A DNA stretch of 64,000 nt, taken from NCBI GenBank assembly GCA_948146395.1, contig OX411545.1, positions 16,109,526-16,173,525 on the forward strand. Reading direction: 5' to 3'. Each line of letters starts with the position of its first letter. Within the stretch, counting starts at the first letter, position 1. Shown here piece after piece: positions 4,639 to 62,910 of this stretch. Source of the stretch: Fragum whitleyi (lineage: Eukaryota; Mollusca; Bivalvia; Cardiida; Cardiidae). The notes beneath the pieces were generated by a model that saw only the letters and a list, made by a program, of their open reading frames with translations, searched no databases and had not been told where the DNA came from. A program made the position numbers and the translations under genes.

Positions 4639-4659
4639 GATTACATATTGTTAGTTGAC

Positions 4660-4722
4660 GATCAAAACCATGTAACTCCAGCTTTTTCTAAAAGCTGTTA
4701 CTAAAGTTACAAGGTTTTGATC
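4660..4722. repeat. Foldback hairpin, ~25-bp arms
   Basis: GATCAAAACCATGTAACT on the left pairs with AGTTACAAGGTTTTGATC on the right (one mismatch). CAGCTTTT/AAAAGCTG forms an inner stem offset by 7 nt. Confidence 0.75.
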
Positions 4723-4928
4723 GCCAAATGAAGATATGATATTTGAGGACAATGAAGGAATTATCCTATCTAAAATTGTCATCTTTTAGACAAACATCTC
4801 TCTGTCTTCAACATGAAAACTAGGTCCCTATTAAAATCACAGAGAAAATAGTAAATTCTATATGCAGATGAGCTGACTAAAACTAGAAATGTTTTAAGGA
4901 CACAGATGCCTCCAAAATTTTATTTTCT

Positions 4929-5017
4929 GCATATGGAAGGGTCAGCACAAAACTATTGTAAGTTACCTATAAATTTTATTGACATTTACAAAAGTTTTGC
5001 GCTGACAACCTTCATAT
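4929..5017. repeat. Foldback hairpin element (family H)
   Basis: Arms GTCAGCACAAAACTATTGTA and TTTACAAAAGTTTTGCGCTGAC face each other, with an outer CATATGGAAGG/CCTTCATATG stem. It belongs to a family of ~75-bp foldbacks found about ten times in the window. Confidence 0.7.
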
Positions 5018-5135
5018 GTCAATGATGGCTCGTGGCATCAATCATTGAGAAACTTGCAAGATCAATTTTTGAATACTGAATCCAATTGTAAATTATACTA
5101 TGGACGGGCATGACCAATTGTCCATGACCTTAGGC

Positions 5136-5150
5136 AAATACAAAAAATAA
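5136..5150 (+). other. 15-bp target-site duplication, left copy
   Basis: AAATACAAAAAATAA occurs immediately left of the hammerhead element and, without mismatch, immediately right of it (12541-12555). A perfect 15-bp duplication fits reverse-transcription-type insertion (LINE, Penelope or retrozyme); cut-and-paste transposons and LTR elements leave shorter ones. Confidence 0.9.
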
Positions 5151-5596
5151 GAAGAAAAAAATGGCTGCACAAGACTTGAGATATGTTCGTTGATTGACTT
5201 GCCTTCTGGAGAGATGTTTTTCTCGTTGTTGGACATGCTTTGTCCTGTGAGGTTCAAGAAAAGCATGTCTTACAAGACATGCTTTGTTCTTGTTTGTCCT
5301 CGGAGATCTGCTTCTGTGGGTGATGATGCAAGATTTGCTCTGCAATTATTTAAGCAAACAGTCTGCCGAAGACTAAATGCTTTTACTTTGCTAGACAATA
5401 ATGTGATGCTTAATGCTAGCATCTAGAGTCTGTTAGCAAGCGAGTCTTATAGGAGACATGCTTCTTTTGTAGCTTGTTAGGGAAGAGCTGCTTCATCTGC
5501 TATATTACTTTCCCCTGGGAATAAGTCGAGTGATTAAGTCTAAGGTGACTTGCTTTTAGTTTCCTTGAGTAGAGAGAGATGCTGCTTGCACTGTCA

Positions 5597-5649
5597 ACCT
5601 TCTATCCCTGACCGGTTTCGTTCAAATTAGAACTCATCAGAGGGAAGGT
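5597..5649 (-). ncRNA. Type I hammerhead ribozyme, copy 1
   Basis: On the minus strand the catalytic core is complete: CTGATGA, stem II GTTC/GAAC around a TAATTT loop, GAAA, a minimal stem III (A-CCGG-T), then GTC as the cleavage triplet. Stem I pairs ACCTT and CCCT with AGGG and AAGGT across an ATAG internal loop, placed as in natural tertiary-stabilised hammerheads. Predicted cleavage falls after the complement of 5610. The very short stem III resembles those of newt and Penelope-type hammerheads, which can act as dimers. Confidence 0.86.
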
Positions 5650-5719
5650 ACAAGCTTTAGTTAGCTTGTTGAGGATGAATGTTCCCTCAATTTGGATGGA
5701 TAGAGAGACGGGGAACGTC

Positions 5720-5888
5720 TATATATACTCTATGGTGCCGGTGGGTGCCGGCGTTGCTATAGTTTCACAGGATATTGGTGCCGGCTGGTGCCGGTAAGGA
5801 GCTTATTCAGCTTCCACAATACTCTGTGGTGCCGGTGGGTGCCGGCATGACTATAATTAAACAAGGGAATGGTGCCGGTTGGTGCCGG
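5720..5888 (-). promoter_or_regulatory. Candidate promoter, left arm copy 1
   Basis: Reverse complement of the right-arm layout: TATATATA at 5720-5727 and GGTGCCGG motifs from 5734 to 5888, upstream (minus strand) of the hammerhead at 5597-5649. Confidence 0.58.
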
Positions 5889-7321
5889 TTTGAAACTTTC
5901 ACAGCTTTCTTAGAATGATGTTTTTTGTCATCTGTCCATTTTAATATGCGTAAACAGAGCGCAAAGTTTTCTCTTGAATAGGGGTGGCAGTCGTTGTATG
6001 TATAAAGGGATGATCTGCTATATCAGGCGATCTACCCGGGTTAGAAAACCCGTTGTTAGGGTGAAACCAACGTCACAAACACTATATACCGGTATTTTAC
6101 TGACGTCCTTCAGTTCGAATATGAACATGAAGTAGTTAACATACTGACTGCAAACCAAATTGGTTCTATAAACCGGAAGACTTTGCCAATTTCATAATTT
6201 TTACGACGCATCTTTGCACAACACAAGAGACAGAAAAAAAAAGACAAGAGAAAAAAGATGGCTGATTGCAGGTCTCTAGGCTATGCTCGGATGCAAATCC
6301 TGACCGGAAGGAGTTTATGAAGTGGATCTTGTTAACCCTGTTTGAGTGTAACTGTTTGTACACCGTTTAAGTGACAGAAATTAGCTGTTCACTGGGCCTT
6401 GTTTGAGCCTAAGGGCCTTTTCGCAACATGTTATAGATTCTTTCTATTTTAAACAATCCCAACACGAAGATGTGATTGGCTACATGTGTAGTCCTCGGAG
6501 GCTTTGGTATTAAAGCCATGGGTGTTAGGGATTCTAAGCACAAATTGGCTATGACAGGGAGAAGAAAAAGAACAGAGTTTGAATGAGAAACATTCAATGC
6601 ACATTTTGGCCATTGATTGACAATGCGAAAAGGATCTTTGCTTTCTCTGTGGAGAAGGAGTAAGTGTTTCATCTGTCTGCTAATGCACACGATAGTTACC
6701 ATCAGTCTCCAACTGATTGATGGTCTTCATATCCAATATGACAAAGGTTGTCATAAGTATATGATTTGTCTTACTTCACATTTCTTGAAGTGTAAGTGTG
6801 CTTCCGGTACTGGTTGGATGCTCGCTTTGTGAAGAGAACGATCAAGTCCCGAGTCTTGGTAAAAGGTAAAGACAAGAAGAAAAAAATGGCTGCACAAGAC
6901 TTGAGATATGTTCGTTGATTGACTTGCCTTCTGGAGAGATGTTTTTCTCGTTGTTGGACATGCTTTGTCCTGTGAGGTTCAAGAAAAGCATGTCTTACAA
7001 GACATGCTTTGTTCTTGTTTGTCCTCGGAGATCTGCTTCTGTGGGTGATGATGCAAGATTTGCTCTGTAATTATTTAAGCAAACAGTCTGCCGAAGACTA
7101 AATGCTTTTACTTTGCTAGACAATAATGTGATGCTTAATGCTAGCATCTAGAGTCTGTTAGCAAGCGAGTCTTATAGGAGACATGCTTCTTTTGTAGCTT
7201 GTTAGGGAAGAGCTGCTTCATCTGCTATATTACTTTCCCCTGGGAATAAGTCGAGTGATTAAGTCTAAGGTGACTTGCTTTTAGTTTCCTTGAGTAGAGA
7301 GAGATGCTGCTTGCACTGTCA

Positions 7322-7374
7322 ACCTTCTATCCCTGACCGGTTTCGTTCAAATTAGAACTCATCAGAGGGAAGGT
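7322..7374 (-). ncRNA. Type I hammerhead ribozyme, copy 2
   Basis: Identical in sequence to copy 1 and exactly 1725 bp from it, with the same core, stems and GTC cleavage site. Its integrity in a tandem copy means a read-through transcript would be cut into unit-length monomers. Confidence 0.86.
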
Positions 7375-7444
7375 ACAAGCTTTAGTTAGCTTGTTGAGGA
7401 TGAATGTTCCCTCAATTTGGATGGATAGAGAGACGGGGAACGTC

Positions 7445-7613
7445 TATATATACTCTATGGTGCCGGTGGGTGCCGGCGTTGCTATAGTTTCACAGGATAT
7501 TGGTGCCGGCTGGTGCCGGTAAGGAGCTTATTCAGCTTCCACAATACTCTGTGGTGCCGGTGGGTGCCGGCATGACTATAATTAAACAAGGGAATGGTGC
7601 CGGTTGGTGCCGG
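7445..7613 (-). promoter_or_regulatory. Candidate promoter, left arm copy 2
   Basis: Same TATA box and eight GGTGCCGG motifs, 1725 bp from left copy 1, upstream on minus of the hammerhead at 7322-7374. Confidence 0.58.
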
Positions 7614-9448
7614 TTTGAAACTTTCACAGCTTTCTTAGAATGATGTTTTTTGTCATCTGTCCATTTTAATATGCGTAAACAGAGCGCAAAGTTTTCTCTT
7701 GAATAGGGGTGGCAGTCGTTGTATGTATAAAGGGATGATCTGCTATATCAGGTGATCTACCCGGGTTAGAAAACCCGTTGTTAGGGTGAAACCAACGTCA
7801 CAAACACTATATACCGGTATTTTACTGACGTCCTTCAGTTCGAATATGAACATGAAGTAGTTAACATACTGACTGCAAACCAAATTGGTTCTATAAACCG
7901 GAAGACTTTGCCAATTTCATAATTTTTACGACGCATCTTTGCACAACACAAGAGACAGAAAAAAAAAGACAAGAGAAAAAAGATGGCTGATTGCAGGTCT
8001 CTAGGCTATGCTCGGATGCAAATCCTGACCGGAAGGAGTTTATGAAGTGGATCTTGTTAACCCTGTTTGAGTGTAACTGTTTGTACACCGTTTAAGTGAC
8101 AGAAATTAGCTGTTCACTGGGCCTTGTTTGAGCCTAAGGGCCTTTTCGCAACATGTTATAGATTCTTTCTATTTTAAACAATCCCAACACGAAGATGTGA
8201 TTGGCTACATGTGTAGTCCTCGGAGGCTTTGGTATTAAAGCCATGGGTGTTAGGGATTCTAAGCACAAATTGGCTATGACAGGGAGAAGAAAAAGAACAG
8301 AGTTTGAATGAGAAACATTCAATGCACATTTTGGTCTTGTAAGACATGCTTTTCTTGAACCTCACAGGACAAAGCATGTCCAACAACGAGAAAAACATCT
8401 CTCCAGAAGGCAAGTCAATCAACGAACATATCTCAAGTCTTGTGCAGCCATTTTTTTCTTCTTGTCTTTACCTTTTACCAAGACTCGGGACTTGATCGTT
8501 CTCTTCACAAAGCGAGCATCCAACCAGTACCGGAAGCACACTTACACTTCAAGAAATGTGAAGTAAGACAAATCATATACTTATGACAACCTTTGTCATA
8601 TTGGATATGAAGACCATCAATCAGTTGGAGACTGATGGTAACTATCGTGTGCATTAGCAGACAGATGAAACACTTACTCCTTCTCCACAGAGAAAGCAAA
8701 GATCCTTTTCGCATTGTCAATCAATGGCCAAAATGTGCATTGAATGTTTCTCATTCAAACTCTGTTCTTTTTCTTCTCCCTGTCATAGCCAATTTGTGCT
8801 TAGAATCCCTAACACCCATGGCTTTAATACCAAAGCCTCCGAGGACTACACATGTAGCCAATCACATCTTCGTGTTGGGATTGTTTAAAATAGAAAGAAT
8901 CTATAACATGTTGCGAAAAGGCCCTTAGGCTCAAACAAGGCCCAGTGAACAGCTAATTTCTGTCACTTAAACGGTGTACAAACAGTTACACTCAAACAGG
9001 GTTAACAAGATCCACTTCATAAACTCCTTCCGGTCAGGATTTGCATCCGAGCATAGCCTAGAGACCTGCAATCAGCCATCTTTTTTCTCTTGTCTTTTTT
9101 TTTCTGTCTCTTGTGTTGTGCAAAGATGCGTCGTAAAAATTATGAAATTGGCAAAGTCTTCCGGTTTATAGAACCAATTTGGTTTGCAGTCAGTATGTTA
9201 ACTACTTCATGTTCATATTCGAACTGAAGGACATCAGTAAAATACCGGTATATAGTGTTTGTGACGTTGGTTTCACCCTAACAACGGGTTTTCTAACCCG
9301 GGTAGATCGCCTGATATAGCAGATCATCCCTTTATACATACAACGACTGCCACCCCTATTCAAGAGAAAACTTTGCGCTCTGTTTACGCATATTAAAATG
9401 GACAGATGACAAAAAACATCATTCTAAGAAAGCTGTGAAAGTTTCAAA

Positions 9449-9617
9449 CCGGCACCAACCGGCACCATTCCCTTGTTTAATTATAGTCATGCCGGCACCC
9501 ACCGGCACCACAGAGTATTGTGGAAGCTGAATAAGCTCCTTACCGGCACCAGCCGGCACCAATATCCTGTGAAACTATAGCAACGCCGGCACCCACCGGC
9601 ACCATAGAGTATATATA
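9449..9617 (+). promoter_or_regulatory. Candidate promoter: 8 CCGGCACC motifs in 4 pairs, then a TATA box
   Basis: CCGGCACC begins at 9449/9459, 9492/9502, 9543/9553 and 9586/9596. Members of a pair are exactly 10 bp apart; successive pairs are 43, 51 and 43 bp apart. TATATATA follows at 9610-9617. The same layout occurs at 11175-11343 (+) and, inverted, at 5720-5888 and 7445-7613 (-). The order repeats-TATA-hammerhead suggests an internal promoter driving the ribozyme transcript; transcription is inferred. Confidence 0.6.
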
Positions 9618-9687
9618 GACGTTCCCCGTCTCTCTATCCATCCAAATTGAGGGAACATTCATCCTCAACAAGCTAACTAAAGCTTGT

Positions 9688-9740
9688 ACCTTCCCTCTGA
9701 TGAGTTCTAATTTGAACGAAACCGGTCAGGGATAGAAGGT
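9688..9740 (+). ncRNA. Type I hammerhead ribozyme, copy 3
   Basis: Plus-strand copy: stem I 5' strand 9688-9696, CTGATGAG from 9697, CGAAA closing stem II, ACCGGT as stem III, and GTC at 9725-9727 with predicted cleavage between 9727 and 9728. It lies 71 nt downstream of the TATA-like box at 9610-9617. Confidence 0.87.
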
Positions 9741-10052
9741 TGACAGTGCAAGCAGCATCTCTCTCTACTCAAGGAAACTAAAAGCAAGTCACCTTAGACT
9801 TAATCACTCGACTTATTCCCAGGGGAAAGTAATATAGCAGATGAAGCAGCTCTTCCCTAACAAGCTACAAAAGAAGCATGTCTCCTATAAGACTCGCTTG
9901 CTAACAGACTCTAGATGCTAGCATTAAGCATCACATTATTGTCTAGCAAAGTAAAAGCATTTAGTCTTCGGCAGACTGTTTGCTTAAATAATTACAGAGC
10001 AAATCTTGCATCATCACCCACAGAAGCAGATCTCCGAGGACAAACAAGAACA

Positions 10053-10076
10053 AAGCATGTCTTGTAAGACATGCTT
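10053..10076. repeat. Perfect hairpin inside the hammerhead unit
   Basis: AAGCATGTCTT and AAGACATGCTT flank a 2-nt spacer. Equivalent sites are 5261-5284 and 11779-11802. The right arm begins in the middle of this hairpin (8335), so it coincides with the point where synthesis of that arm ended. Confidence 0.85.
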
Positions 10077-11174
10077 TTCTTGAACCTCACAGGACAAAGC
10101 ATGTCCAACAACGAGAAAAACATCTCTCCAGAAGGCAAGTCAATCAACGAACATATCTCAAGTCTTGTGCAGCCATTTTTTTCTTCTTGTCTTTACCTTT
10201 TACCAAGACTCGGGACTTGATCGTTCTCTTCACAAAGCGAGCATCCAACCAGTACCGGAAGCACACTTACACTTCAAGAAATGTGAAGTAAGACAAATCA
10301 TATACTTATGACAACCTTTGTCATATTGGATATGAAGACCATCAATCAGTTGGAGACTGATGGTAACTATCGTGTGCATTAGCAGACAGATGAAACACTT
10401 ACTCCTTCTCCACAGAGAAAGCAAAGATCCTTTTCGCATTGTCAATCAATGGCCAAAATGTGCATTGAATGTTTCTCATTCAAACTCTGTTCTTTTTCTT
10501 CTCCCTGTCATAGCCAATTTGTGCTTAGAATCCCTAACACCCATGGCTTTAATACCAAAGCCTCCGAGGACTACACATGTAGCCAATCACATCTTCGTGT
10601 TGGGATTGTTTAAAATAGAAAGAATCTATAACATGTTGCGAAAAGGCCCTTAGGCTCAAACAAGGCCCAGTGAACAGCTAATTTCTGTCACTTAAACGGT
10701 GTACAAACAGTTACACTCAGACAGGGTTAACAAGATCCACTTCATAAACTCCTTCCGGTCAGGATTTGCATCCGAGCATAGCCTAGAGACCTGCAATCAG
10801 CCATCTTTTTTCTCTTGTCTTTTTTTTTTCTGTCTCTTGTGTTGTGCAAAGATGCGTCGTAAAAATTATGAAATTGGCAAAGTCTTCCGGTTTATAGAAC
10901 CAATTTGGTTTGCAGTCAGTATGTTAACTACTTCATGTTCATATTCGAACTGAAGGACATCAGTAAAATACCGGTATATAGTGTTTGTGACGTTGGTTTC
11001 ACCCTAACAACGGGTTTTCTAACCCGGGTAGATCGCCTGATATAGCAGATCATCCCTTTATACATACAACGACTGCCACCCCTATTCAAGAGAAAACTTT
11101 GCGCTCTGTTTACGCATATTAAAATGGACAGATGACAAAAAACATCATTCTAAGAAAGCTGTGAAAGTTTCAAA

Positions 11175-11343
11175 CCGGCACCAACCGGCACCATTCCCTT
11201 GTTTAATTATAGTCATGCCGGCACCCACCGGCACCACAGAGTATTGTGGAAGCTGAATAAGCTCCTTACCGGCACCAGCCGGCACCAATATCCTGTGAAA
11301 CTATAGCAACGCCGGCACCCACCGGCACCATAGAGTATATATA
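11175..11343 (+). promoter_or_regulatory. Candidate promoter, second right-arm copy
   Basis: Eight CCGGCACC motifs from 11175 and TATATATA at 11336-11343, 71 nt before hammerhead copy 4. Spacing is identical to the first right-arm copy. Confidence 0.58.
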
Positions 11344-11413
11344 GACGTTCCCCGTCTCTCTATCCATCCAAATTGAGGGAACATTCATCCTCAACAAGCT
11401 AACTAAAGCTTGT

Positions 11414-11466
11414 ACCTTCCCTCTGATGAGTTCTAATTTGAACGAAACCGGTCAGGGATAGAAGGT
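11414..11466 (+). ncRNA. Type I hammerhead ribozyme, copy 4
   Basis: Same sequence as copy 3, 1726 bp downstream. Cleavage at copies 3 and 4 would release a 1726-nt monomer with the 5'-OH and 2',3'-cyclic phosphate ends that can be ligated into a circle. Confidence 0.87.
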
Positions 11467-12540
11467 TGACAGTGCAAGCAGCATCTCTCTCTACTCAAGG
11501 AAACTAAAAGCAAGTCACCTTAGACTTAATCACTCGACTTATTCCCAGGGGAAAGTAATATAGCAGATGAAGCAGCTCTTCCCTAACAAGCTACAAAAGA
11601 AGCATGTCTCCTATAAGACTCGCTTGCTAACAGACTCTAGATGCTAGCATTAAGCATCACATTATTGTCTAGCAAAGTAAAAGCATTTAGTCTTCGGCAG
11701 ACTGTTTGCTTAAATAATTACAGAGCAAATCTTGCATCATCACCCACAGAAGCAGATCTCCGAGGACAAACAAGAACAAAGCATGTCTTGTAAGACATGC
11801 TTTTCTTGAACCTCACAGGACAAAGCATGTCCAACAACGAGAAAAACATCTCTCCAGAAGGCAAGTCAATCAACGAACATATCTCAAGTCTTGTGCAGCC
11901 ATTTTTTTCTTCTTGTCTTTACCTTTTACCAAGACTCGGGACTTGATCGTTCTCTTCACAAAGCGAGCATCCAACCAGTACCGGAAGCACACTTACACTT
12001 CAAGAAATGTGAAGTAAGACAAATCATATACTTATGACAACCTTTGTCATATTGGATATGAAGACCATCAATCAGTTGGAGACTGATGGTAACTATCGTG
12101 TGCATTAGCAGACAGATGAAACACTTACTCCTTCTCCACAGAGAAAGCAAAGATCCTTTTCGCATTGTCAATCAATGGCCAAAATGTGCATTGAATGTTT
12201 CTCATTCAAACTCTGTTCTTTTTCTTCTCCCTGTCATAGCCAATTTGTGCTTAGAATCCCTAACACCCATGGCTTTAATACCAAAGCCTCCGAGGACTAC
12301 ACATGTAGCCAATCACATCTTCGTGTTGGGATTGTTTAAAATAGAAAGAATCTATAACATGTTGCGAAAAGGCCCTTAGGCTCAAACAAGGCCCAGTGAA
12401 CAGCTAATTTCTGTCACTTAAACGGTGTACAAACAGTTACACTCAAACAGGGTTAACAAGATCCACTTCATAAACTCCTTCCGGTCAGGATTTGCATCCG
12501 AGCATAGCCTAGAGACCTGCAATCAGCCATCTTTTTTCTC

Positions 12541-12555
12541 AAATACAAAAAATAA
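12541..12555 (+). other. 15-bp target-site duplication, right copy
   Basis: Second AAATACAAAAAATAA, directly after the CTTTTTTCTC end of the right arm. Confidence 0.9.
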
Positions 12556-13142: not shown

Positions 13143-13386
13143 GGGCCCGAGGTTATAAAAGTTTTCTAAGGGCTCAACTGGGAATTTTCTCAATTTTTAA
13201 ATTCAAATAAATGTATGAAAATAAAAGATGATATTAATAAGGTGTTATTCATTACAACTTATTAATATTATTTTTTTAAGTTTATACATTAAATGAGTAT
13301 TAAAACAGAATTACGGCTTTAATCTCAAATTGAAATTTGAGAAAATTTTGAATTGAGAATGAGAAAAGTTTTATAACCTAGGGCCC
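13143..13386 (+). mobile_element. 244-bp MITE with GGGCCC termini (family G), copy 1
   Basis: Inverted ends GGGCCCGAGGTTATAAAA and TTTTATAACCTAGGGCCC, each followed by an AAGTTTTCT-like extension. Internal AT-rich palindrome around TTATTAATATTAT. A second 244-bp copy lies in opposite orientation at 43111-43354, fixing both boundaries. Confidence 0.85.
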
Positions 13387-14652
13387 AGATGATGATGTTG
13401 TAGCAACATAGTATACTTATTGACTTACAGTCTTGACCAAGGCGGTACATTTTGCACTTTATATCCACATGGTCTCTTTTTGCATGGCATATCATATATT
13501 ACAAAACAAAGTTTGTTGAACCTGTAAGTTAGTCAAATATATTTCATCGCGAAAAATCTGGTAGCAAGTAAATGATTTCTCAGAAGAAAATTCAATATGT
13601 TTCCTTTCAAGAAGCGAAAAAGAAATATTTCAGTAGTCAGCTTTCCCTGTGTATGACAAATTCACTCAATCATCGTTGCCATTTTCCTGGCCAAAAAAGA
13701 TCATTTCTTCCATTGTCAGAAACTCCCTTGATAAATATTTAAGTATTTTGACAGTCATATAAGTTCCTTATCTTTTCCCTTTCAATATGTTACCAGAACT
13801 AAATATTGTAATTTAATTTTGATGGGTCAATGGAAAACTATTGTAAGTACCAATGAAATATTTTTAACTTTTTAGCATGTTTTATTGTTTAGTCCATAAA
13901 TTCATCATCATATGAACTCCGTATATTCGGCAGAAACTTTGCTTGAGCTTGTAAAAGCTTTGAGTATAGTCCCTTGCAATTATGTAGACACTTAATGCAA
14001 GAGAGCTACATGAACAAAATAATAATGAAAGTTCCATCAAAATATATGAAATATTATAAAATCCTTAATATTAGTTTAAGGGCTAATTGCTTTGCCTGTG
14101 TCAATTAATCTTATCCACAACACAACAAGTTTGGCTTCTTTTCAAGGTCGTGAGAAAATGTAATTAATAAAGCTACCAAACAGGCACGCTTAAAGTACGA
14201 CCTAATTAACCTCGGTTGACAAATGACGCCCTAGTTCATGATCATTCCTGATCGTAAATCGAGTTTTCCTGTAGTGTGTCTAAATATACAGAAATATCCA
14301 ATTATAGATAGAATAGACTCAGGTCCAATCAAAGATGTAACCATGTCCTCCAAAAGATGCCTGAACGTAATATCGTTTCAATTATGGGAGTATTTACTGA
14401 GACCTTTTGAGGGGTCAATGCATAAAATTATTGAAATTGCCAGGATTTATGACACTTTCAATGTAGTTTTGGACAATAATATCTAAATTTCAGTTTTATG
14501 ATTTATTTACCATTAAAAAGCATAAGATCCTGCTCTATCAAACTATTACTTTTTTCTTGCCGATTGAGTACTAATTAGTAGACAAGAATTTGCAATCGCA
14601 TTTGCTCATGTAATCTATAACACCTTCTTGCCAAATTAGATAACATTTCAAA
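13387..14652. other. Mostly unique sequence with foldback remnants
   Basis: Half-copies of family H foldbacks occur near 13824-13860 and 14409-14445 (GGTCAATGGAAAACTATTG and GGTCAATGCATAAAATTATTG). No convincing gene; the 82-codon frame at 14238 runs into one remnant. Confidence 0.5.
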
Positions 14653-15693
14653 CAAGAGGACCCAGAGGGCCCTAAATCGCTCACCTGATATTTCAATTAA
14701 ATTATCATTAAGACTCCTTTTCCTGTGATATGGCATGAACCTTCCCATTTTCAATAGAGTTCATTCTTGTGACCTGGCAAACATTTTGACCACGTTGCAT
14801 GAAGATTGGACCATATTTTAGGGGTCTAGAGCTCTTACAAGAAAATTGTCATTAAGGCCCCTTTTCCTGTGATATGGCACAGATACTTCCCATTTTCAAA
14901 AGAGTTCATCCTCTTGACCTAACAAACATTCTGACCAAGTTTCATGATGTGGGACCATATTTGTGGCTTCTAGAGTGTAAACAAAAAAAATGTCATTAAG
15001 GCCCCTTTTCCCGTGATATGGCACTCATCCTTCCCATTTTCAATAGAGTTCATCCTCATGACCTAACAAACATTCTGACAAAGTTTCATGAAGTCATTGG
15101 ACCATATTTGTGGCTTCTAAAGTGTAAGCGAGAAGTTTGTCATTAAGGCCCCTTTTCCCGTGATATGGTACAGATCCTTTCCATTTTAGCAATTTTTACA
15201 AGGAAACACCCAAGGAATATTTATGCCAAGTTTGGTTGATTTTGACTCATAAGTTTAGGAGATGTCGCTTAAAGAAATTGTTAACAAAAATGTCATTGAG
15301 GCCCCTTTTCCCATGATATGGCACTCATCCTTCCCATTTTCAATAGAGTTCATCCTAATCACCTAACAATCATGCTGAAAAGGTCCATGAAGATTGGACC
15401 ATAATTGTGGCTTCTAGAGTGCAAACAAGAAATTTGTCATTAAGGCCCCTTTTCCTGTGATATGGCACAGATCCTTTCCATTTTAGCAATTTTTACAAGG
15501 GACCATCCAAGGAATATTTCTGCCAAGTTTGGTTGATTTTGACTCAGTAGTTTAGGAGATGTCGTTTAAAGAAAATGTTGATGCCGTGACAGACAGACGG
15601 ACAGACAGCCAGAAGGACAGATGGACAGATGGACACCGGACATTGATAGATCACATTAGCTCCCTTGAGCACTTCATGCTCAGTTGAGCTAAA
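14653..15693 (+). mobile_element. Pearl/CvA-like non-autonomous element A
   Basis: Head CAAGAGGACCCAGAGGGCCC...CGCTCACCTGA, then repeated blocks with TCATTAAGGCCCCTTTTCC and TGATATGGCAC at ~160-bp spacing, then a GACAGACGG-type tract (15585-15645), then the tail CCTTGAGCACTTCATGCTCA...GAGCTAAA. Head and tail carry inverted GCTCACCTGAG-like sequence. Tandem core plus tetranucleotide tract is the architecture of bivalve pearl/CvA elements, later grouped with non-autonomous Helentrons; that assignment is by resemblance. Confidence 0.7.
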
Positions 15694-15794: not shown

Positions 15795-17153
15795 GTCATC
15801 TTCAAGTAAACTCATAACTTGTCAACCATGTTATTAACACCAGAGATTGTCTGATGTACATTTAGGGTGGATTTAAAAGAAACAGACTTTAATTTACTCC
15901 TACAGCAATTTGATTTTCTTTTTAATTGCAAACATAGTTATTGATGGAATTGAATTCTTTTAAAAAGTTAAGTAGACCTAAACCTTAAGAATATCCCTAC
16001 CAAGTTTAAGATATGCCCAATAGTTTAGGCAAAAATTAACCTTCTCTGAGATTTTTGGCAATATTTTGACATTTCTAATGCCATGGAAACCAGACATTTT
16101 GACTGAATAAAAATTATTTTTACAATTTTGGTAGAGTTTCATCCAAAGAATATCCCTACCAAGTTTCAGCTTATTTAGCCTAGTGGTTTAGGAATAGAAG
16201 ATTTTTTTCTAAGATTTTCAGCAACTTTCCGCCATTTTTCAGCCTTTCTGTTACCATGCAAACCAGAGTTTTTGATGAATTTCAATTCTTTCAACAACTT
16301 TAGAGGAACTTCACATAAGGAACATCCTTGCCAAGTAACAGCTTGATTGGCCTAGTGGTTGAGAAGGAGAAGATTTTTTTCTAACATTTTCGGCCATTTT
16401 TGGCCATTTTTCAACTTTTCTGTTTCCATGGAAACCAGAATTATGATGAATTTAAATTCTTTTAACAACTTTAGAAAAGCTTCTTCCATAGAAACATCTC
16501 TGCTCAGTTTCAGCTTGATTGGTCCAGTGGTTGAGAAGGAGAAGATTTTTTCAAAGATTTTCAGCAATTTTCGGCCATTTTTTTACCTTTCAGGTACCAT
16601 GGAAACCAGAGTTTTTGATGAAATTTAATTCTTTTAAACACTTTTGAAGAGCTTGACAAAGGAACATCTCTGCTAAGTTTAAGCTTGATTGGTCAAGAGT
16701 TTTAGGAGTAGAAGAATTTTTCTAAGATTTTCAGCAATTTTAGGCAATTTTTCATCCTTTCCGTTACCATGGAAACCAGAGTTTTTGATGAAATTAAAGT
16801 CTTTAAACAACTTTTGAAGAGCTTCACCCAAGGTGCATCTCTGCCAAGTTTCAGCTTGATTTGCCCAGTGGTTTGGGAGGAGAAGAAATTTTTCTGAGAT
16901 TTTCGCGATTTTCAGTCTTTCTGTTACCATGGCAACCAGAGTTATTTATAGAATTAAATTCTTTTAACAACTTTTGAAGAGCTGCACCCAAAGAACATCC
17001 CTGCCATTTTCAGCTTGATTGGCCAAGTGATTTAGGAGGAGAAGATGTTTAAAGAAATTGTTGACAGACCGACGGACAGACAGACGGACAGACAGACGGA
17101 TGGTGAGTGATCACAATAGCTCACCTTGAGCACTTTGTGCTCAGGTGAGCTAA
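15795..17153 (+). mobile_element. Pearl-like element B with ~165-bp core repeats
   Basis: Homologous to element C (30171-31410) from CTCATAACTTGTCAACCATG onward but lacking the head. About seven core repeats share CCAAGTTTCAGCTTGATTGG and TTACCATGGAAACCAGAG. Then come a GACGGACAGACAGACGG tract (17070-17102) and the tail CACCTTGAGCACTTTGTGC. Frames of 71-89 codons here follow the repeats on both strands and are not genes. Confidence 0.72.
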
Positions 17154-27710: not shown

Positions 27711-28180
27711 AAGATGTGTTTGTGAAAACACGAATGCCCCCGTAATGGCATTTTCTTTTCAAAGTTGACCTTTACAGATGACCTTGACCTTGTCACATGA
27801 CCTTGACTTTGGTACCAGCGGATGCAGATCATTGAGATCTATCATCATGCCAAATATTAGCTTTGTATCTTGAATAGGCTTGAAGATATTGGCAAAGTTT
27901 TCGGGTTAAGTTTTTTCAAAGTTTGACCTTGACAGATGAACTTGACCTTGTCACATGACCTTGACTTTGGTACCAGCGGATGAGGATCATTGAGATCTAT
28001 CATCATGCCAAATATTAGCTTTGTATCTTGAATAGGCTTGAAGATATTGGCAAGGTTAAGTTTTCAGGTTAAGTTTTCGGACAGACGGACGGACAGACGG
28101 ACAGACAGACAGACGGACAGACAGACAGACGGACATGAGTAAAACAATATGCCCCTGATCTCTCGATACGGGGGCATAAA
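27711..28180 (+). mobile_element. Pearl-like element F1 with TGACCTTGA motifs
   Basis: Head AAGATGTGTTTGTGAAAACA followed by CGAATGCCCCCGTAATGGCA; two ~145-bp core units with repeated TGACCTTGAC, TCATTGAGATCTATCATCAT and GTATCTTGAATAGGCTTGAA; a GACAGACGGAC tract (28080-28136); tail TGCCCCTGATCTCTCGATAC then GGGGGCATAA. Head GCCCCCGTAAT and tail ATACGGGGGCAT form inverted ends. Paralogues at 45903 and 42740. Confidence 0.72.
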
Positions 28181-30170: not shown

Positions 30171-31410
30171 CAAGAGGACCATGATGGTCCTATATCGCTC
30201 ACCTGAGTGTGTCACTCATAACTTGTCAACCATGTTATGAAAACGACAATTTGTTTGATGTAAATTAAGGTAGGTTAAAATACGTCCTATTGCAACTTGA
30301 TTTTTTTTTTAAGTTTCGTATATTTTCAACTTTTTTCTTATCATGGTGTATTCTTTTAACAACTTTTGAAGACCTTCACCCAAGGAACATCCCTGCCAAG
30401 TTTCAGCTTGATTGGTCCAATGGTTTAGAAGAAGAAGAATTTTTTCTAAGATTTTCAGCCATTTTTCAGACTTTCCGTTACCATGTAAAACTAGAGCTTT
30501 TGATGAAATTAAATTCTTTTTTTATTAACTTTTGAAGACCTTCACCCAAGGAACATCCCTGCCAAGTTTCAGCTTGATTGGCCCAGTGGTTAAGGAGAAG
30601 AAGAATTTTTTCTAATATTTTCAGCTATTTTCGGCCATTTTTCAGATTTTCCATTATCATGGAAACAAGAGTTTTTGATAAAATTAAATTCTTTTAACAA
30701 CTTTTAAAGACCTTCACCCAAGGAACATCCCTGCCAAGTTTCAGCTTAATTGGCCCAGTGGTTGAGGAGGAGAAGAATTTTTTCTAAAATTTTCAGCCAT
30801 TTTTCGCCATTTTTCAGATTTTCCGTTACCATGGAAACTAGAGTTTTTGATGAAATTAAATTCTTTTAACAACTTTTGAAGACCTTCACCCAAGGAACAT
30901 CCCTGTCAAGTTTCAGCTTGATTGGCCTAGTGGTTTAGGAGGAGAAGAATTTTTTCTAAGATTTTCAGCCATTTTTCGCCATTTTTCAGATTTTCCGTTA
31001 CCATGGAAACTAGAGTTTTTGATGAAATTAAATTCTTTTAACAACTTTTGAAGGAACATCCCTGCCAAGTTTCAGCTTGATTGGCCCAGTGGTTTAGGAG
31101 GAGAAGAATTTTTTCTAAGATTTTCGGCCATTTTGGGCTATTATGTAACCATGGCAACCAGAGTTTTTGTTGAAATTAAATTCTTTTAACAACTTTTAAA
31201 GAGCTTCACCCAAGAAACATCCCTGCCGAGTTTCAGCTTGATTGGTCCAGTGGTTTAGGAGGAGAAGATGTTTAAAGAAATTGTTGACGGACGGACAGAC
31301 GGACGGACGGACGGACAGACGGACAGACGGACGGACGGACGACGGACGGACGACGGACAGTGAGTGATCACAATAGCTCACCTTGAGCACTTTGTGCTCA
31401 GGTGAGCTAA
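30171..31410 (+). mobile_element. Pearl-like element C, full length
   Basis: Head CAAGAGGACCATGATGGTCC...CGCTCACCTGAG; about six core units of 166-172 bp (CTTCACCCAAGGAACATCCC at 30374, 30540, 30712, 30884, with a shortened unit near 31050 and another at 31204); an ACGG/ACAG tract (31290-31350); tail GCTCACCTTGAGCACTTTGT then GCTCAGGTGAGCTAA. The terminal GCTCACCTGAG / CTCAGGTGAGC are exact inverted repeats. ATG-initiated frames within it are repeat-derived. Confidence 0.78.
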
Positions 31411-36848: not shown

Positions 36849-38053
36849 AGTCCCCTACCGGATTTATAAATCTATCCCTAGAGCAGTATCTTTTTTGGTG
36901 GTAAAGGTATAACTACCTCTCCAAAATATTAGTTGTATCAGAATTAATGTATCAGCACAATATCTCTGAGGATAAAAAAAAAAATCTGGAAATTTCCTGG
37001 TATTTTACTAAGACCAGCATCCATATCTTCCACAAAAATCAATGGACCGGAACCAAATACAAACTTGATCTGTAACTCATTAATGCGGACTCACATACCA
37101 AAAAATCAGCTCAATATCTCCAAGGGTTAAGAAAAAAAGTCCGGAAAACTGAAATTTCCTGGTAATTTTTGAAGTCCAGCATCCGTATCTTCCACAAAAA
37201 TCAATGGACCGGAACCAAACTCAAACTCATTCTGTCACTCATTGATGCGGACTCACATACCAAAAATCAGCTCAATATCTCCAAAGGTTAAGAAAAAAAG
37301 TCCGGAAAACTGAAATTTCCTGGTAATTTTCGAAGTCCAGCATCCGTATCTTCCACAAAAATCAATGGATCGGAACCAAACTCAAACTTGTTCTGTAACT
37401 CATTGATGCGGACTCACACTCCAAAAATCAGCTCAATATCTCCAAAGATAAAGAAAAAAAGTCCGGAAAACTGAAATTTCCTGGTAATTTTTGAAGTTCA
37501 GCAACTGTATCTTCCACAAAAATCAATGGACTGGAACCAAACTCAAACTCGTTCTGTAACTCATTGATGTGGACTCACATACCAAAATTCAGCTCAATAT
37601 CTCCAAGGGTAAAGAAAAAAAGTCTGGAAAACTGAAATTTCCTGGTAATTTTCGAAGTCCAGCATCCGTATCTTCCACAAAAATCAATGGACCCGAACCA
37701 AACTCAAACTCGTTCTGTAACTCATTGATGTGGAAGCACATACCAAAAATCAGCTCAATGTCTCCAAGGGTTAAGAAAAAAAGTCCGGAAAACTGAAATT
37801 TCCTGGTTATTTCTAAGTCCAGCATCCGTACCTCCACAAAAATCAATGGACCAGAACCAAACTCAAACTCGTTCTGTAACTCATTGATGCAGACTCACAT
37901 ACCAAAAATCAGCTAAATATCTTCAAGGGTTAAGAAAAAAGTCTGGAAAACTGAAATACGGACTGACAGACAGACGGAGGGACGGACGGACAGACGGCCA
38001 GACGGACGGAGCGCAAACCTATAGTCCCCTTTGGCTTTCGCCGGTAGGGGACT
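36849..38053 (+). mobile_element. Pearl-like element I, 161-bp period, perfect 13-bp TIRs
   Basis: AGTCCCCTACCGG (36849-36861) and CCGGTAGGGGACT (38041-38053) are exact inverted repeats. The core is ~6 units; CCGGAAAACTGAAATTTCC recurs at 37141, 37302, 37463, 37624, 37785 and 37944, a period of 161 bp (159 for the last). Then a GACAGACGGACGG tract (37963-38010). Plus and minus frames of 75 and 85 codons come from the repeat. Sequence is unrelated to the other pearl-like families; only the plan is shared. Confidence 0.82.
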
Positions 38054-43033: not shown

Positions 43034-43110
43034 AATCATTGCTATCAAGATTTTTTTAGCCAAAATATGCCCTGTGCAGAGAAAACAAGATGTTGATTCA
43101 GCTAAGATCA

Positions 43111-43354
43111 GGGCCCGAGGTTATAAAACTTTTCTCATTCTCAATTCAAAATTTTCTCAAATTTCAATTTAAGATTAAAGCCGCAATTCTGTTTGCAATA
43201 CCCATTTTAATGTATTAACATAAAAGATAATATTAATAGGTTGTTATGAATAACAACTTATTAATATTATCTTTTATTTACATCATTTATTTAAAGTTAA
43301 AATTTGAGAAAATTCTCAGGTTGAGCCTAAGAAAACTTTTATAACCTCGGGCCC
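43111..43354 (-). mobile_element. 244-bp MITE family G, copy 2
   Basis: Inverted copy of 13143-13386: GGGCCCGAGGTTATAAAACT at left, TTTTATAACCTCGGGCCC at right, here a perfect 18-bp TIR. Confidence 0.88.
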
Positions 43355-61855: not shown

Positions 61856-62910
61856 AGGCTTGAGTCGCTCCACAGGCTTGAAATTCTTGTAATAGCAAAC
61901 CTTAGTTTTGACTAAATTTTTACATATTTTAGGGTTCTACTGAAATTGAAATGATTTTCAAAGTTTCCACTATATAACATATAAAGAAATGACCTCTGCC
62001 CATAAAAGACATATATTTCATCCAATCACGATAATTTTTGGCTACATGATAATGGTTCACCCAAGGATCATGCCAATGAATTTTAATTGAGGATCATACC
62101 AATGAATTTTAATTGATATCCAACAGTTACATTCTGAGAAAATGATTTTCAAAGTTTCCACTATATAACATATGGAGAAATGACCTCCACCCATAAAATA
62201 CATATTTTTGATACGATCACAATTATTTTTAGTAGACTGATAAAGGGTCACTCAATGATCATTCATGTAAAATTTGGTTGATATCCATCCATTACGTTCT
62301 GAGAAAATGATTTTCAAAGTTTCCACTATATATCATATAGAGAAATGACCTCCGCCCATAAAATCCATATTTTTCATCCGATCACAATAATTTTTGGAAG
62401 ACTGATAAAGGGGCACCTAAGGATCATTCTTGTGAAATTTGGTTGATACCCCTCTGTTACATTCTGAGAAAATGATTTTCAAAGTTTCCACTATATAACA
62501 TATAGAGAAATGACCTCCGCTCATAAAATGCATATTTTTCATCCGATCACAATAATTTTTGGTAGACTGATAAAGGGTCACCCAAGGATTATTCATGTAA
62601 AATTTAATTGGTATCCATCAATTAGAATCTGAGAAAACTCACTTTTTACCATATATGGAAATTAGCAACGCCCATTAAATCCATGTTTTTCATTGGATCA
62701 AAATTTCTTGAACAACTTTGAAAGAGGGTCACCCAAGGATCATTCCTGTGAAGTTTGGTTGAAATTCATCCAGTAGTTTCTGAGGAGAAGATTTTTAAAG
62801 AAAAAGTTTACGACCGGACGCACGGACGCACGGACGGACGGACGGACGGACGCACGACGGACACAACGCCATGACAATAGCCCCAGTGGCTTTCAGCCAG
62901 TGGAGCTAAA
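61850..62910 (+). mobile_element. Pearl-like element J2, uninterrupted
   Basis: Head TTGAGTCGCTCCACAGGCTT, core units with GAGAAATGACCTC near 61986, 62174, 62339 and 62506, then AGTTTCTGAGGAGAAGATTT, a CACGGACGGACGGACGG tract (62816-62852), tail CCAGTGGCTTTCAGCCAGTG then GAGCTAAA. It shows what element J1 looked like before the CACTA-like insertion. Confidence 0.8.

Follow-up and report, generated by a model that had tools for sequence, protein, structure and literature searches.

A probable two-armed insertion of a large, non-coding hammerhead retroelement in the bivalve Fragum whitleyi, probably mobilized in trans from both ends of its target site

A 64,000-nt stretch of the genome of the bivalve Fragum whitleyi (assembly GCA_948146395.1, contig OX411545.1, positions 16,109,526–16,173,525 of the forward strand; hereafter the window, in which all positions are counted from the first base) contains at positions 5151–12540 what looks like a single insertion of 7.4 kb, composed of copies of a repeat unit of 1725/1726 bp that carries a hammerhead ribozyme motif. 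With a probability of roughly two-thirds, this represents the recent insertion of a non-autonomous, non-coding hammerhead retroelement that was mobilized in trans, probably by a Penelope-type enzyme, starting from both ends of the target. More tentatively, and with a chance clearly short of even, two distinct circular RNAs of 1.7 kb, each entered at one of two duplicated signals, may have been reverse-transcribed for more than a single lap from the two staggered target ends. The scope of the analysis is this one insertion in this one window.

The insertion is bounded by exact 15-bp duplicates of AAATACAAAAAATAA (left copy 5136–5150; right copy 12541–12555), a target-site duplication (TSD), and no further copy of this 15-mer occurs on either strand of the window. 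The match extends leftward by one C, giving 16 bp if C5135 is counted, and C12540 may then belong to the duplication. The initial annotation had assigned 5151–12540 to a unit-based element, and this range is the stretch between the TSD copies, the duplication itself having gone unmentioned. The same annotation had described tandem units of 1725 bp; the period (1725/1726 bp) held up, whereas the arrangement proved to be not one tandem array but two opposed arms that meet head to head at 8334/8335. The left arm (5151–8334, minus strand, RNA sense running from 8334 to 5151) comprises 3184 nt, or 1.85 units, and the right arm (8335–12540, plus strand) comprises 4206 nt, or 2.44 units. Unit positions are counted from the base that directly follows the predicted hammerhead cleavage site. 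On this scale the left arm runs from 726 to 459, where a match between flank and template leaves up to two bases of ambiguity, and the right arm from 333 to 1087 (or 1086, an ambiguity of one base). In both arms the RNA 3' side faces the chromosome, and at the junction the differing arm starts (unit 726 and 333) overlap by at most 1 bp. One complete unit lies between two predicted cleavage sites in each arm (9728–11453, plus, 1726 nt; 5610–7334, minus, 1725 nt), and no copy of the unit occurs outside the insertion within the window. The combination of tandem and inverted copies with a TSD is as in Penelope-like elements (PLEs), and retrozymes share both a TSD longer than 4 bp (here 15 bp exact, or 16 bp with the ambiguous C) and a content of guanine plus cytosine (GC) below 50% (here 0.400–0.435 in the six 1-kb bins entirely within the insertion).

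The outer ends of the two arms are related to each other. Comparison of the unit with itself (E up to 0.1) yielded a 94-bp repeat, a palindrome at unit 318–355, and one further repeat of 25 nt (unit 1071–1095 versus 443–467; 88% identical, E 7e-4, offset 628), and the right end (1087) and the left end (459) fall at the same place of this 25-nt repeat, within the 1–2 ambiguous bases. The portion retained at the right end, a putative reverse-transcriptase (RT) entry signal A, is CAGCCATCTTTTTTCTC (12524–12540, plus; unit 1071–1087), and its counterpart at the left end, signal B, is CAGCCATTTTTTTCTTC (5151–5167, minus; unit 443–459, part of the repeat at 443–467); the putative entry signal has the shape CAGCCATYTTTTTTC..TTGTC. 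Further full copies of signal A are found at 9073–9089 and 10798–10814 (plus) and at 6248–6264 and 7973–7989 (minus), and further copies of signal B at 8445–8461, 10170–10186, and 11896–11912 (plus) and at 6876–6892 (minus). Local alignment of the two 280-nt surroundings of the ends gives a score of 38, which is reached by none of 500 Markov-simulated pairs (maximum 31). Judged from these sequences, the enzyme seems to have selected both ends as places at which to begin reverse transcription; PLE insertions likewise end at defined RT start sites within the RNA, a property seen here at both ends of this one insertion.

Because the motifs at the two ends are similar and inverted relative to each other, they could also be taken for the imperfect 17-bp terminal inverted repeats of a DNA transposon, made up of the CAGCCAT..TTTTTTC motifs. 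This candidate was rejected as highly improbable: DNA transposons do not usually generate a TSD as long as 15 bp, eight of the ten motif copies are internal to the insertion, and no transposase-like open reading frame (ORF) is present among the 20 compared with Pfam. The same ends bear on the possibility of an assembly artefact, in which the two arms would be an inverted chimera of a tandem array. Assemblies are prone to errors where long inverted repeats are nearly identical, but an exact TSD at the outer ends and ends at homologous places of a signal are unexpected for a chimera, and an artefact is very improbable.

Differences among the unit copies carry information on the templates. Five sites vary, four of which (267, 993, 1093, and 1308) are each private to one copy, while unit 1232 is arm-specific and separates the two left copies covering the site from the two right ones. 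The difference at unit 1093 consists of a run of ten T in the middle right-arm copy (10820–10829), one T more than in the other covering copies and lying a few bases past entry signal A; this extra T accounts for the 1725/1726 length difference. The four predicted cleavage sites crossed by the arms bear no scar, which indicates that the templates were uncut or re-ligated there. The pattern of variation is consistent with each arm having been copied from a single template molecule over more than one lap, with a few errors made during copying or afterwards, although linear multimers from a homogeneous donor array could account for it as well. The small number of differences between copies suggests a recent event.

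The junction between the arms raises a further possibility, that snap-back self-priming of a single complementary DNA (cDNA) at a palindrome made the head-to-head structure, as has been proposed for the palindromes of rotifer Penelope elements (PMC3846280, in the excerpt available). The right arm does start within the palindrome of the unit, but the arm starts differ (333 and 726), so that the centre is not a palindrome of the unit; the arms also differ at unit 1232, and each outer end has its own entry signal. Self-priming is therefore disfavoured and regarded as quite improbable. The palindrome itself (unit 318–355) is represented in full at 10045–10082 (plus), and the RNA 5' end of the right arm falls inside the equivalent palindrome. 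The strongest fold in a 110-nt profile of the unit (276–385, z -5.09) covers it, and this structure may have stopped the enzyme at the start of the right arm.

Type I hammerhead motifs are found at 9688–9740 (plus; core at 9697, predicted cleavage between 9727 and 9728), 11414–11466 (plus; core at 11423, cleavage between 11453 and 11454), 7322–7374 (minus; core at 7365, cleavage between 7335 and 7334), and 5597–5649 (minus; core at 5640, cleavage between 5610 and 5609). These are the positions at which the initial annotation had placed four hammerheads, and the motifs are identical over the 62-nt stretch compared. A full-core descriptor (CUGANGA, stem II, GAA, A..U stem III, H17, and a stem I of at least 4 bp) has four matches in the window versus one in 100 Markov-simulated windows, both strands included, and a simple hammerhead pattern is expected 0.01 times in the window by chance. 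The motif is found on one polarity of the unit only and occurs once per tandem unit, as in retrozymes, though with an Rfam score below the gathering threshold. Helix III is minimal, consisting of ACCGGU only with no loop; a minimal type I hammerhead in a repeated region is likewise a property of PLEs, a likeness established by comparison with their description only. The internal loop reported earlier for stem I is, in the canonical register read from the sequence, a one-sided 4-nt bulge (AUAG), and the core, reported as intact, is so in sequence, while the native fold is not predicted by the model.

No coding capacity above chance was detected in the unit. Its longest ORF starting with M is 97 aa, a length reached by 46 of 300 simulated units on either strand and by 37 of 300 on the sense strand, and a protein search with this ORF returned two candidates, none at E 0.001. 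The window holds 26 ORFs of at least 88 aa, nine overlapping the insertion (several being copies of each other) and 17 outside it; among the 20 compared with Pfam (the 17 outside and three of the nine overlapping), no curated cut-off was reached, and no ORF of the size required for an RT with a GIY-YIG endonuclease, as would characterize a PLE, exists in the insertion or the window. A coding element was rejected on these grounds (no ORF above chance, no protein match, no Pfam match at the cut-off), which, among the ORFs tested, also bear out the earlier statement that no reverse transcriptase is encoded.

A non-coding unit of this size with a hammerhead invites comparison with delta-like or viroid-like circular RNAs that have become endogenised. 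Delta-like agents, hammerhead-bearing in some cases, measure 1500–1700 nt (PMC7936874, in the excerpt available), a length near that of the unit, and the unit folded as a circle is more stable than expected (z -6.6 versus 40 dinucleotide shuffles). However, the predicted circle is branched, with 44 hairpins (mean of 31.9 in shuffles) and no rod, and 55% of its bases are paired, the paired fraction of 0.55 being the same in shuffles. No ORF above chance and no delta antigen ORF was found; the hammerhead is on one polarity only and of type I rather than type III; and the locus is a DNA insertion with a TSD. The combination of rod and antigen being absent, this candidate was rejected, and its likelihood is minimal.

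Upstream of the hammerhead, each full unit contains an array that resembles a promoter. One unit has eight CCGGCACC boxes at unit 1448–1602, within two 94-bp repeats, followed by TATATATA at unit 1609 and then by the hammerhead, with cleavage after 1726. The boxes, putative upstream promoter elements, are at 11175–11329 (plus), with counterparts at 9449–9603 (plus), 7459–7613 (minus), and 5734–5888 (minus); the insertion thus holds 32 boxes (four sets of eight), and none occurs elsewhere on either strand of the window. They are paired at 10 bp start to start, and the starts of consecutive pairs are separated by 43, 51, and 43 bp (unit 1429–1611, e.g., window 11156–11338), a regular spacing that suggests an array of protein-binding sites. 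The putative TATA box TATATATA (11336–11343, plus; counterparts 9610–9617, plus, and 7445–7452 and 5720–5727, minus) begins 117 nt ahead of the base that immediately precedes the cleavage site. Boxes and TATA box may together act as a promoter, from which transcription would begin a short distance ahead of the hammerhead.

The course of events that best accommodates these features would begin with transcripts of a tandem array, which successive hammerheads would cut into 1725-nt monomers and a host ligase would close into circles. An enzyme provided in trans, most likely a Penelope-type reverse transcriptase that carries a GIY-YIG nuclease, would cut an A-rich target with a stagger of ~15 nt, as judged from the TSD. 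A TSD of such a kind implies 3' overhangs, so that both target ends can have primed reverse transcription, and the geometry of the arms suggests that both target 3' ends did serve as primers. Reverse transcription would begin internally at the same place of the 25-nt signal, with copy A used on one side and copy B on the other, and 2.44 and 1.85 unit lengths would be copied from two templates differing at unit 1232, which were more likely circles than linear multimers. Copying would stop at unit positions 333 and 726, short of a unit boundary, and head-to-head joining of the resulting cDNAs would complete the insertion.

Linear templates form a variant of this scheme and are counted within the probability given for it. 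In this variant, multimeric read-through transcripts of a donor tandem array served as templates and the hammerhead was idle in transposition, which is tenable at odds clearly short of even. In an anole PLE, mutation of the hammerhead leaves insertion in vitro normal, and unprocessed RNA is described there as the dominant substrate (PMC11167929); the modelled fold of the present hammerhead also favours an inactive register. Against linear templates, the differences within arms are private only and the difference between arms is shared, as for more than one lap per molecule, although one site is thin evidence.

A number of results weigh against trans-mobilization of a hammerhead retroelement by a Penelope-type enzyme as set out above. 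The reading is based on a single insertion in one window, its two templates are deduced from one arm-specific site, and the TATATATA octamer is not rare, with nine occurrences outside the insertion in the window, for which reason the promoter reading rests mainly on the CCGGCACC boxes. The two 17-nt signals together have ten copies in the insertion, two at the ends and eight internal; internal copies would be expected if the enzyme, once under way, reads through them. From the cleavage site to the entry sites the distance is 459 and 1087 nt, versus ~85–92 nt (calculated) in the anole PLE (PMC11167929). Of the 44 hairpins in the minimum-energy circle, the two with the largest apical loops (41 and 36 nt, the next being 9 nt) contain the entry sites, but the ensemble pair probability is 0.80–0.94 for hairpin B and 0.20–0.23 for hairpin A, leaving A unsupported, and the stability of neither entry-site stem clearly exceeds that of shuffled sequences (z -0.9 and -1.4). 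A conserved entry hairpin at both signals was dropped for these two reasons.

Further results on the opposing side concern the ribozyme. A score below the Rfam threshold had been named in the initial annotation as grounds for abandoning the hammerheads, and there is indeed no match at the gathering threshold; the best one, to Hammerhead_HH9, scores 29.0 bits (E 5.2e-4), whereas 52 bits are needed to pass gathering. In a nearest-neighbour fold of the 61-nt motif, a shifted, core-occluding register in which the core is paired with the cleavage strand (-18.3 kcal/mol) is preferred over canonical stems I and II without helix III (-10.7 kcal/mol). Within the 1726-nt circle, the pair probability of proximal stem I is 0.01, compared with 0.83–0.85 for stem II and 0.84–0.99 for distal stem I. 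Dimer cofolding returned the full duplex, an output that carries no information. Because the energy model ignores the tertiary core, the unfavourable fold is a caution and not a refutation of the predicted self-cleavage.

The geometry of the insertion counts against a Penelope-type enzyme as well, since the same arrangement would be expected if a long interspersed nuclear element (LINE) with twin priming had mobilized the element. Twin priming leads to a head-to-head inverted 5' part with TSDs. In the available part of PMC7229834, LINEs or PLEs are named as possible partners. However, PLEs are described as the only elements in which RT starts at an internal RNA site without homology to the DNA that is cut (PMC11167929), and here the right primer end shares at most one base with the template and the left primer two. 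Mobilization by a LINE is accordingly considered unlikely, and a Penelope-type enzyme is retained as the probable agent.

Parallels to the insertion are found in several described systems (PMC7229834, PMC3846280, PMC4918200, PMC8490949, PMC7936874, and PMC7761336 are compared here within the excerpts available). In vitro, purified anole PLE protein cleaves the two target strands, extends each of them, and initiates reverse transcription internally at two adjacent sites; the start place is non-homologous to the cut DNA, genomic insertions end on the same sites, and the hammerhead shows no cleavage without the protein (PMC11167929). Rotifer Penelope insertions have inverted arrangements, some with TSDs of 8–10 bp and some with none, a putative TATATATA box occurs in the pseudo-LTR (long terminal repeat), and a host gene was apparently mobilized in trans between pseudo-LTRs (PMC3846280). 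The insertion in F. whitleyi resembles these PLEs in its inverted and partial-tandem copies, in the TSD (present in some of them), in the TATATATA box, in the type I hammerhead, in the probable internal RT start, and in the presumed extension of both target strands (PMC11167929, PMC3846280). It differs in that it is without an RT or endonuclease ORF, in that the entry sites are far from the hammerhead and occur twice per unit, and, relative to the rotifer elements (PMC3846280), in a TSD of 15 bp rather than 8–10 bp. As it has no RT, the element falls outside the PLEs as strictly defined.

Metazoan non-LTR retrozymes (PMC7229834) are alike in their tandem non-coding units with one type I hammerhead each, a GC content below 50%, TSDs above 4 bp, a proposed circular RNA template, and a PLE partner. 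They are unlike the present insertion in unit length (1725 nt here), in its minimal helix III, in its two opposed arms within one TSD-bounded insertion, and in its doubled RT-entry signal and promoter-like boxes. Animal retrozyme RNAs measure ~170–400 nt and the genomic repeats 150–450 bp (PMC7229834), and the unit, at 1725/1726 nt versus RNAs of 170–400 nt, is much longer, as had been recognized at the outset. Unit length is thus beyond the retrozyme range (~150–450 bp), while four other features tested agree with retrozymes; since hammerhead-flanked circular RNAs from 150 to >1000 nt are mentioned in the discussion of PMC7229834, the difference in length is one of degree. By description and without an alignment, the hammerhead looks closer to the minimal Penelope/Terminon variant (PMC7761336) than to the canonical retrozyme motif. 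The earlier designation as a large, non-autonomous retrozyme-like element stands as regards the TSD-bounded insertion, the single hammerhead per unit, the non-coding nature, and the long unit, and requires qualification as regards the hammerhead. On these sequence features, the best reading places the element between retrozymes and non-autonomous Penelope elements.

Other hammerhead-bearing sequences are more distant. Plant LTR retrozymes (PMC4918200) are likewise non-autonomous, non-coding, and modelled with a circular RNA, and are larger than the animal ones (~900–1050 nt in eucalyptus), but have LTRs, type III hammerheads, and 4-bp TSDs in place of the type I motif and 15 bp seen here. The W-element families of Schistosoma (PMC8490949) are repeated, transcribed, and hammerhead-bearing, with a TSD-like flank suggested for one; W25.2, in contrast, measures 415–428 bp, and no two-armed insertion is described in the text consulted. 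Circular RNAs resembling hepatitis delta virus (PMC7936874) share the ~1.7-kb length and a hammerhead, but have type III hammerheads, a rod fold, and delta antigen, none of which was found in the insertion. No comparable element was found in the open-licence literature searched, and two pattern scans of viral contigs gave zero matches.

For the movement of hammerhead retroelements, with circular RNA as a possible template, the schemes in the available parts of PMC7229834 and PMC4918200 are models. A young-looking insertion with a clean TSD, ends at entry sites, and arms longer than one unit makes the template question testable. If the element moved as proposed here, insertions throughout the family are expected to end at the two signals, and variants specific to a template should recur in all copies of the same arm; retrozyme-like units of animals would also be extended to more than four times the 400 nt reported for their RNAs. 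If two circles were indeed copied, the element would represent a large, two-signal class between retrozymes and Penelope elements, and would provide natural evidence for circular RNA as a transposition template, with one insertion preserving the whole event. An active hammerhead would, in addition, make the unit a natural large self-circularising RNA scaffold.

The surroundings of the insertion are repetitive. In the right flank, 13143–13390 is 90% identical to 43107–43354 on the opposite strand over 251 aligned positions, which indicates that the insertion sits among interspersed repeats. Left of the insertion, two hairpin-forming stretches (4645–4737 and 4922–5026) match microRNA-precursor models at scores far below gathering, and are possibly palindromes resembling miniature inverted-repeat transposable elements. 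Arrays of ~144–172-bp repeats (some periods being multiples) are present at 14699–15635, 16051–17100, 27756–28135, 30350–31358, 36989–38010, and 62113–62862, and GACA/GACG/ACGG-type microsatellites follow them closely or within 180 bp; these arrays with their microsatellites resemble the 'pearl'-type or Helitron-related repeats of bivalves.

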